A stretch of DNA of 49,952 nt from Oscillospiraceae bacterium (GTDB lineage: Bacteria > Bacillota > Clostridia > UMGS1810): NCBI GenBank assembly GCA_015068825.1, contig SVJU01000015.1:1-49952 (forward strand). The letters are read 5' to 3'. Position 1 is the stretch's first letter. Every line of letters begins with the position of its first letter. The position numbers and the translations under genes are program-made. The notes beneath the pieces are model-generated. The model did not search any database and was not told the DNA's origin. It saw only the letters and a list, made by a program, of their open reading frames with translations. Below are positions 9,694 through 38,429 of the stretch, piece after piece.

Positions 9694-9812
9694 ACAACCC
9701 CTCCGTGTTTGCTTCGCAAACCCACCTCCCCTTACACAGGGGAGGCTTAACGGTGCGGTTTTCAAGGCTCCCCTGTGCAAGGGGAGCTGTCACGAAGTGA
9801 CTGAGGGGTTGT
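9694..9812. repeat. Palindromic repeat pair, copy A (ends-out arrangement)
   Basis: A 119-bp element with 10-bp perfect inverted ends (ACAACCCCTC / GAGGGGTTGT). Each half is a unit of about 50 bp with its own hairpins: GTTTGC-TTC-GCAAAC and CTCCCCT...AGGGGAG on the left, AGGGGAG and GTCAC-GAA-GTGAC on the right. The same unit recurs at 25157-25205, 25551-25604, 38209-38261 and 38308-38362. There the pairs face the other way, with the AGGCT side outermost. No open reading frame worth calling lies inside copy A. Confidence 0.8.
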
Positions 9813-9837
9813 AAAAACCGATTAAATCAATGGTTAC

Positions 9838-10053
9838 TCAAAGGGAAGCCTTTTTATTATTTGGGCAATCTAAATCATCGCATTTTTTACATTTGTTTTC
9901 ATTTAATGGTTTTAAACAACACATCATATAATTACATTCATCACAGCAACATTCTATTAAATTATTATTTTCATCAAAGTGCTCACCGTTTCCCAAACAA
10001 TCCTTTCCCATATTTCCCGGTGTAAGAACTATTCCTGTTACATCAATAATCAT
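9838..10053 (-). CDS. Small cysteine-rich protein, unknown function
   Basis: A 71-residue protein with 10 cysteines, in clusters KDC, ECCCDEC, MCC, NKCKKC and LDC. This suggests bound zinc or an Fe-S site, but no family is recognised. It has no signal peptide or membrane segment. I chose the ATG at 10053 (start MIIDVTG) because GGAGGT lies 10 bases upstream; the longer frame reaching 10113 would run through the terminator of the leader RNA. It has no promoter of its own apart from that of the leader RNA (10074-10232), whose terminator ends about 20 bases before the start. Expression therefore probably depends on read-through. Confidence 0.7.
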   Translation of the reverse strand: MIIDVTGIVLTPGNMGKDCLGNGEHFDENNNLIECCCDECNYMMCCLKPLNENKCKKCDDLDCPNNKKASL

Positions 10054-10073
10054 AATATAAAGTACCTCCAAAT

Positions 10074-10232
10074 AAAAAATGCGTGACTTTGAAGCCACGC
10101 ATGAAAAATGCACGACTCCAATTGTTGCGATACAATTTCAACATTTACAAAGCATGTCAAAATAGAGCCTGCATTTTTACCGAAGGTAAAATAACAAACT
10201 TTGCAAATGTTTTTATAAAATTGTATCGCAAT
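10074..10232 (-). ncRNA. Structured leader RNA 1 with terminator (family not recognised)
   Basis: A transcript of about 159 nt. Helix P1 is a perfect 14 bp (10218-10231 with 10125-10138). Helix P2 is 12 bp with one G-U (10199-10210 with 10141-10152). An inner hairpin is followed by the conserved strand at 10152-10168. The 3' end is a terminator stem (10079-10102) with a T run, then the GGAGGT of the cysteine-rich gene. The RNA at 37975-38145 has the same plan with different helix sequences and matching single-stranded blocks. It may be a riboswitch-like attenuator or an independent small RNA. Confidence 0.72.
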
Positions 10233-10236
10233 TAGA

Positions 10237-10265
10237 AGTATACCATATATTAAAAATAAGGTCAA
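10237..10265 (-). promoter_or_regulatory. Sigma-A promoter of leader RNA 1
   Basis: On the minus strand, TTGACC (10265-10260), 17 bases, TATACT (10242-10237). The 18 bases at 10228-10245 are identical to those at the leader RNA 2 promoter. Confidence 0.8.
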
Positions 10266-37688: not shown

Positions 37689-37730
37689 AAATATTAAAGG
37701 CGTGCTATTCGGCACGCCTTTAATATTTTT
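37686..37730. terminator. Strong bidirectional terminator
   Basis: A perfect 19-bp stem (37686-37704 with 37712-37730) with a seven-base loop. It ends the galactosidase gene on plus, and contains the last codons and stop of the minus-strand small gene. Confidence 0.88.
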
Positions 37731-37956
37731 CTGCACAATAATAAATATTGCTATCCCCAAGTATGTAACCGATTTTTTCATAAATGTCTTGATAATTAGG
37801 AAGAGCAAGGTTCATAACTTCCTGTATTTTGCCAATTACCTCAAGTGCGGTTTCGTAATCAATCTTTTCAGGAAGATGGTCAAATTTGTATTTGGTTATG
37901 CTTTTTCCAAGCTCGTATGTTATTCTTAAATCAATCATTTCAATGTCCATTTTCAT
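37720..37956 (-). CDS. Small protein behind leader RNA 2, unknown function
   Basis: A 78-residue soluble protein. Two or three helices are likely (YETALEVIGKIQEVMNLAL, QDIYEKIGYIL). It has no cysteine cluster, unlike the other small gene with the same kind of leader. AGAGGGG lies 6 bases before the ATG, and the leader RNA terminator ends about 20 bases upstream. I do not recognise a family. Because the promoter and terminator of the leader RNA precede it, expression should depend on read-through. The overlapping plus-strand frame 37702-37929 lacks a ribosome binding site and is rejected. Confidence 0.65.
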   Translation of the reverse strand: MKMDIEMIDLRITYELGKSITKYKFDHLPEKIDYETALEVIGKIQEVMNLALPNYQDIYEKIGYILGDSNIYYCAEKY

Positions 37957-37974: not shown

Positions 37975-38145
37975 AAAAAATGCGTCCCCGAAGGAACGCA
38001 CGAAAAATACATTACTCCGCTTTGTCGCCAAACAAAAACTTTTCAACAGCTATCAATGCATGTGAAAACAGAGCATCTGTATTTTTACCAAAAAGTAAAA
38101 ATACACACACTGACAACTGTTTTTATTTAGTTTTTGTTTGGCAAT
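37975..38145 (-). ncRNA. Structured leader RNA 2 with terminator (same family as RNA 1)
   Basis: A transcript of about 171 nt. Helix P1 is a perfect 14 bp (38129-38142 with 38027-38040). P2 is 13 bp with three G-U pairs (38108-38120 with 38046-38058). P3 is a perfect 11 bp (38095-38105 with 38078-38088). The strand 38058-38074 matches 10152-10168 of RNA 1 in 15 of 17 bases. The terminator stem (37981-38000) has a UUCG loop and a T run. P1 and P2 differ in sequence from RNA 1 but keep pairing, which supports a real fold. Confidence 0.75.
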
Positions 38146-38149
38146 TAGA

Positions 38150-38178
38150 AGTATACCAAAAATAATACTTGGTGTCAA
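38150..38178 (-). promoter_or_regulatory. Sigma-A promoter of leader RNA 2
   Basis: On the minus strand, TTGACA (38178-38173), N17, TATACT (38155-38150). The -10 and start region match that of leader RNA 1 over 18 bases. Confidence 0.83.
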
Positions 38179-38208
38179 GGAACAATGTTTTCCTTTTACT
38201 ATAAAAAA

Positions 38209-38362
38209 AGGCTCCCTTGTGTAAAGGGAGCTGTCGAACATAAGTGAGACTGAGGGATTGTCTTTTTCTGCTTTTACTTTTGAGAATATATTTTTTCTTT
38301 CACAATTACAATCCCTCCGAGTTTGCTACGCAAACCCACCTCCCTTTACACAAGGGAGGCTT
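38209..38362. repeat. Palindromic repeat pair, copy C (no internal gene)
   Basis: Units at 38209-38261 and 38308-38362 have the same outward orientation as copy B at 25157-25604, with AGGCTCCCTT outermost and GAGGGATTGT inside. The 46-bp centre has no coding capacity, so this could be a deletion product or the progenitor of the gene-carrying form. Each unit contains CTCCCTT...AAGGGAG and, on the right, GTTTGC-TAC-GCAAAC. Confidence 0.78.
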
Positions 38363-38429
38363 TTCTCATTAAAATTTTCTGCTAAATTGCTCATTTGAAC
38401 TATATGACGATCTTTCTCTGATTTTATAA

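Follow-up and report, generated by a model that had tools for sequence, protein, structure and literature searches.

Two RNA copies and their neighbours in the window

The window, i.e., the whole stretch of 49,952 nucleotides analysed here (positions 1 to 49,952 of contig SVJU01000015.1, assembly GCA_015068825.1, Oscillospiraceae bacterium), contains two copies of a structured RNA, A and B, both located on the minus strand. Each copy is preceded by its own promoter, is built up from the helices P1, P2 and P3, ends with an intrinsic terminator (T1) and is followed by a gene coding for a small protein (Table 1). This organization had been described, with no strand given, in a sequence-only reading of the same DNA, together with a change in the sequences of P1 and P2 between the two copies that leaves their pairing intact and a 71-residue, 10-cysteine protein encoded downstream, and all of these features are readily found again. 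The spacing has to be corrected in part, since the terminator had been placed about 20 bases before the Shine-Dalgarno sequence, whereas its U-run ends about 5 nt before that sequence and a distance of about 20 nt fits the start codon. With respect to dinucleotide shuffles, the folds predicted by RNAfold reach z values of -9.0 for copy A and -9.9 for copy B, and none of 200 shuffles is equally stable. Within P2, the P3 hairpin competes with the apical pseudoknot strand because the 3' strand of P3 overlaps it.

Table 1. Coordinates of the two RNA copies, their structural elements and the adjoining genes in the window.
Feature	Position	Strand	Details
Promoter, copy A	10237..10265	-	-35 TTGACC 10260-10265, 17-nt spacer, -10 TATACT 10237-10242
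RNA copy A	10074..10233	-	Model start to end of terminator U-run; cmsearch with R1/R2
P1 5' strand, copy A	10218..10232	-	ATTGCGATACAATTT; where the 5' end of the transcript is expected
P1 3' strand, copy A	10124..10138	-	AAATTGTATCGCAAC; from sequence and covariation
P2 with all its interior, copy A	10142..10209	-	Outer arms 10199-10209 and 10142-10152
P3 hairpin, copy A	10175..10191	-	Read from sequence
Apical pseudoknot strand, copy A	10164..10178	-	AAAAATGCAGGCTCT; predicted partner S
Switch strand S, copy A	10104..10119	-	GGAGTCGTGCATTTTT; predicted partner apical strand or T1 5' arm
Intrinsic terminator T1, copy A	10074..10102	-	5' arm ATGCGTGGCTTC 10091-10102, doubling as predicted antiterminator partner of S
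Cysteine-rich protein gene behind copy A	9838..10053	-	71 aa, 10 cysteines; Shine-Dalgarno GGAGG 10065-10069; start codon 10053
Promoter, copy B	38150..38178	-	TTGACA 38173-38178, 17-nt spacer, TATACT 38150-38155
RNA copy B	37975..38146	-	Layout as copy A
Pseudoknot strand, copy B	38070..38086	-	AAAAATACAGATGCTCT; paired with S CGGAGTAATGTATTTTT 38003-38019
78-aa protein gene behind copy B	37720..37956	-	Homologue behind another RNA copy, contig C25

The promoters are a regular component of the family to which both copies belong. A score of at least 10/12 to TTGACA/TATAAT is reached by 112 of 166 family upstream regions versus 19 of about 1000 random stretches, and nearly all family promoters exhibit the 17-nt spacing and a constant distance to the RNA start. 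Palindromic MITE-like repeats (GGCTCCCTTGTGTAAAGGGAGCTG...GAGGGATTGT) adjoin RNA copies of this genome, at 9700-9815 and 38200-38365 of the window and upstream of the RNA at locus L005.

The cysteine-rich protein matches no Pfam or NCBIfam family. It occurs in three copies in this genome and in six copies in genome G005, all nine of them encoded behind the RNA. More distant homologues have the RNA beside them in only 11 cases out of 25, and a dedicated pair consisting of the RNA and the cysteine-rich protein was rejected as not obligate. At L207, L211, L212 and L222, where the RNA is absent, distant homologues adjoin what appears, by eye, to be a divergent small helix-turn-helix gene. A terminator remnant (CATCGGTTGGCGCATTTTTT) without the remainder of the RNA lies upstream of the cysteine-rich gene at L231, which suggests that the leader has been lost there. 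For the 78-residue protein encoded behind copy B, Pfam gives only a sub-threshold match to DUF4867 (E 0.057).

Distribution of the family and covariation of its helices

The RNA consists of some 160 bases and is present in uncultured gut Clostridia, where a single genome may contain as many as about 16 copies. Further, diverged copies turned up when the genome to which the window belongs (2.0 Mb, 62 contigs) was searched at the DNA level. The covariance model R1, built from five copies of this genome and comprising P1, P2, P3 and T1 with the pseudoknot left out, has matches in 42 of the 118 genomes searched, many of them from other taxonomic families of the class. The model R2, built from 62 sequences, detects the RNA nine times in this genome and as many as 16 times in others; of 391 genomes drawn from the whole class, 97 have matches, as do 66 of the 318 high-quality ones. 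When named species genomes were scanned for a motif, the matches fell mainly in uncultured Clostridia, Oscillospiraceae and Ruminococcus, many of them from ruminant guts. Tandem copies, all equipped with a promoter and a terminator of their own, occur at L041/L091 (three copies), L017/L046, L049 and L116, and some of them precede a single gene. In addition, a longer subtype of 190-233 nt (L040 1199-1417, L086 2154-2371, L178, L182 and others) possesses a different apical region while keeping T1 and the pseudoknot between S and the apical strand.

The family had not been recognized in the sequence-only reading, which had called for a comparison with Rfam and for a covariance model. At the gathering cut-off, Rfam 15 gives no match in the window, and only tRNAs at 20 related loci; relaxed searches with copies A, B and L173 return nothing but sub-threshold noise with scores far below the cut-offs. 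The family is not described in the open-access papers searched either. P1, P2 and T1 covary strongly: across the 62 sequences, double changes occur in 11 of 12 pairs of P1, in all 13 pairs of P2 and in all nine pairs of T1, and 96% of the cells of the modelled structure are paired, versus 78% in shuffles and 31-51% with the strands slid. The compensatory changes in P1, P2 and T1, and those of the pseudoknot considered below, show selection on structure.

These compensatory changes also speak against a mobile or repeat element that merely spreads promoter-terminator cassettes without a specific switch. Such an element would account for a copy number of as many as 16 per genome, with differing neighbours and some copies in tandem, but the RNA has no match among the PLSDB plasmids, its conserved 25-nt motif is not found in the IMG/VR viral contigs, and no transposase was noticed at the loci read, so that this explanation appears very improbable. 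Carriage by phages or plasmids was likewise discarded on the basis of the PLSDB and IMG/VR searches, the only candidates being two unannotated contigs from human faeces. These contigs, MT835845.1 and MT837627.1, are labelled 'Bacteriophage sp.' and contain RNA 72-75% identical; the one record of the two that was read is flagged UNVERIFIED and could be bacterial DNA that was mis-binned.

Alternative pairings of the switch strand and the genes behind the RNA

The strand S (GGAGn(n)nUGCAUUUUU) is located between P1 and T1 and is complementary to a conserved apical strand, AAAAAUGCA-n-GCUCU. In the 62 sequences, on an alignment built on the model without the pseudoknot, this pseudoknot is 96% paired and shows 39 double-change cells versus 13.6 in shuffles. 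Moreover, an alignment-free search recovered it in 36 of 42 variants of 190-233 nt. When the duplex energies of self and permuted partners are compared in 96 sequences, z amounts to -12.4 for the apical strand with S and to -13.2 for S with the T1 5' arm, versus -0.7 for the control pairing of the apical strand with the T1 5' arm, through which alone the relatedness of the sequences is controlled in these values. The conserved loop had been noticed in the sequence-only reading; beyond that, the apical loop is predicted to pair with the strand that immediately precedes the terminator, and this strand in turn with the terminator 5' arm, two extra pairings involving S that account for the conservation of the loop.

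The antiterminator formed by S and the T1 5' arm is 85% paired in an alignment made without regard to it, compared to 28-63% when slid. Its covariation excess is modest (20 double-change cells versus 9.8 in shuffles), and its five double-change pairs are reached by 298 of 500 shuffles; the pairing is rich in G-U pairs. On average, the modelled antiterminator hairpin amounts to -11.7 kcal/mol, versus -6.2 kcal/mol for the S-shuffled control and -15.6 kcal/mol for T1, and that of copy B is weak (-7.0 kcal/mol). Concerted three-way changes can be read from two members. At L094, S contains GAAGUC while both the apical strand and the T1 5' arm contain GACUUC, and at L050 an S with ACAAAGC faces GCUUUGU in T1 and GCUUU in the apical strand. 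Taken across the family, these comparisons show the predicted alternative pairings of S and their conservation, and the antiterminator, mutually exclusive with its alternative, is conserved beyond chance both in energy and in the proportion of paired cells.

A leader-peptide (ribosome-stalling) attenuator starting from an AUG in S was also considered, as both window copies possess a GTG or ATG after the GGAG of S, with a frame open through T1. Among 123 RNAs, however, only 29 have ATG and 13 GTG at this place, 32 lack a start codon and the frames differ greatly in length; this explanation, which requires a start codon that is not conserved, was rejected and deserves hardly any credence.

Depending on the locus, the RNA is followed by a gene or not. 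Among the 167 distinct loci, an open reading frame with a ribosome-binding site is present within 110 nt at 112, its start codon lying at a median of 21 nt after T1, so that the intrinsic terminator stands between the promoter and a gene directly downstream. The products fall into some 50 unrelated clusters, among them BspA-type LRR, RCC1-repeat, copper-amine-oxidase N-terminal and AbrB-like proteins; 64 of the 112 are predicted, by a crude test, to be secreted or membrane-bound, and 39 comprise fewer than 100 residues. No pathway theme emerges among the genes of these 112 loci and, without a common pathway, they suggest no ligand.

It is possible, though quite unlikely, that the RNA acts on its own as a small RNA (RNA-binding, sponge or 6S-like) and that its terminator is an ordinary one, the downstream genes being expressed by leakage or being chance neighbours. 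The 55 of 167 loci devoid of an open reading frame within 110 nt would fit this explanation, as would the short, strongly terminated product and the tandem copies with a promoter and terminator each. It accounts poorly for the ribosome-binding sites and start codons that follow at 112 of 167 loci, mostly at a tight distance after T1, and in the window, inspection by eye reveals no promoter in the interval from T1 to the gene. Besides, a plain terminator needs no specific pairing of its 5' arm with S, and the Rfam searches returned no 6S match.

The RNA is most probably a new family of cis-acting transcription attenuators, outside every Rfam family tested, a reading to which a probability of about 0.78 is assigned; as a functional class, it would best be filed with the attenuator-like RNAs of the terminator/antiterminator type. 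To this extent, the attenuator or riboswitch-like leader proposed in the sequence-only reading stands, whereas confining it to the control of tiny proteins is too restrictive: roughly half of the genes downstream code for predicted secreted or membrane proteins, the families are mutually unrelated and about one third of the copies are geneless.

We infer that these pairings switch termination, with OFF as the default state. Each copy would form a cassette made of a sigma-A promoter, the structured RNA and T1, with S as the switch. The OFF state would be reached when P1 and P2 have formed and the apical loop captures S as a pseudoknot; T1 would then fold and stop transcription some 160 nt from its start. 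The ON state would arise when the pseudoknot is broken or remains unmade, the apical loop being occupied or the fold delayed; S would then associate with the T1 5' arm into the antiterminator, allowing the polymerase to read through and the gene some 20 nt further to be expressed.

Geneless copies, trigger and known systems

The geneless copies, about one third of the family, count against a purely cis-regulatory leader, which does not explain them. Some of the 55 are tandem copies placed ahead of another RNA. Many others contain, after T1 and mostly within 5-45 nt of it, a segment R' antisense to S and to the 3' strand of P1, behind which a second terminator usually lies. In eleven genomes, every RNA copy was sought, which gave 123 RNAs, at 43 geneless and 80 gene loci. 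An exact antisense match of at least 12 nt to the S/P1 region of a family member occurs at 18 of the 43 geneless loci versus one of the 80 gene loci, and an energy gap exceeding 8 kcal/mol at nine versus none.

With respect to the targets of R', none of the 18 segments of this eleven-genome set having such a match (at least 12 nt) matches its own RNA; an action of R' exclusively in cis was discarded on this ground, although a few R', those of L095, L097 and L036, fit their own RNA by energy. Matches within the same genome extend up to 16-19 nt, e.g., in this genome the R' of the copy on contig C9 matches the copy on C55 over 17 nt, and its matches to window copy B and to the copy on C25 comprise 15 nt. 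A first test of same-genome targeting on 17 loci gave a combined p of about 8e-10, but the gene-locus control was biased in the same direction, and after permuting the genome labels p amounts to 0.055 for the mean exact-match length and to 0.30 for the count. Strict same-genome targeting was rejected accordingly, and the tendency is only suggestive because P1 types are common to different genomes; the difference in energy gap between geneless and gene loci persists.

The R' segments hint at RNA switches wired to one another. Acting in trans, R' could either capture S, which would favour termination, or open P1, which would favour read-through, so that either sign is possible. A further step would be circuits made exclusively of RNA, in which geneless copies serve as relays, read-through of T1 producing an R' addressed to the S/P1 3' region of another member and silencing or opening its switch, while P1 doubles as a genome address code; at present this idea is speculative and rather unlikely to be correct.

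Concerning the trigger, a small-molecule riboswitch would have the same anatomy as the attenuator and would differ from it by the trigger alone, its core consisting of the pseudoknot and the P1/P2 internal loop. This loop contains, on its 5' side between P1 and P2 (nt 13-30), an AAUA motif found in 128 of 167 members (77%) versus 30% in shuffles. The terminator/antiterminator layout also suits a riboswitch, as does the occurrence of many copies per genome ahead of unrelated genes, since second-messenger riboswitches are known to occur in multiple copies per genome before unrelated genes. The downstream genes, however, have no pathway in common, riboswitches do not usually occur as free-standing or antisense-bearing copies, and beyond the short AAUA motif no long conserved unpaired core was identified. 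A riboswitch is accordingly a tenable but minority reading. For the attenuator proposed here, the trigger would most likely be a protein or an RNA that works in trans and targets either the apical loop or the internal loop with the AAUA motif; a small molecule bound to a classical aptamer is less likely because the competing pairings explain much of the conserved sequence.

Should the attenuator assignment be right, the gut Clostridia would gain a widespread multi-copy class of regulatory RNAs that precede genes for secreted and surface proteins and for dozens of tiny proteins as yet uncharacterised; for these genes, the papers searched revealed no regulation of this kind. The evidence for the pseudoknot and that for the antiterminator, taken together, render the switch directly testable by a few point mutations.

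Several known systems resemble the RNA. The preQ1-I and fluoride riboswitches are pseudoknotted, transcription-terminating riboswitches in which the pseudoknot decides between terminator and antiterminator, and the leader described here is proposed to be of the same kind. It differs from them by a much longer hairpin, covarying P1 and P2, the lack of a gene-pathway theme, the free-standing and antisense-bearing copies and the absence of any Rfam match. Type III toxin-antitoxin systems of the ToxIN type similarly comprise a pseudoknot RNA, behind which a terminator and a gene for a small protein follow in this order; in contrast to them, the new RNA is not a tandem repeat and is followed by about 50 unrelated clusters, around half of the products being predicted as secreted. 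No ToxN/AbiQ-like endoribonuclease was detected among the representative downstream proteins scanned, which gave LRR, RCC1, Cu-amine-oxidase-N, MazE/AbrB or nothing, and P0001 and P0002 gave no named family in this check. Like 6S RNA, the new RNA possesses a long hairpin, a similar size and its own promoter, but it is linked to a gene by a terminator, is pseudoknotted and has no RF00013 match in any Rfam search.

The antisense-controlled attenuators of the plasmids pT181 and pIP501, from which synthetic cascades have been built (PMC3753616), share with the RNA a pre-emptor strand that is located upstream of the terminator and pairs with the terminator 5' arm. By the same logic, an antisense RNA capturing the pre-emptor would favour termination, and the R' of the geneless copies could act in this way. 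Unlike the plasmid systems, the new RNA is chromosomal and multi-copy, has an intramolecular pseudoknot as competitor, and carries its antisense segment behind the terminator of another copy, with a putative action in trans. If the antisense-bearing copies do act in trans, they would represent a natural counterpart of the attenuator cascades of synthetic biologists.
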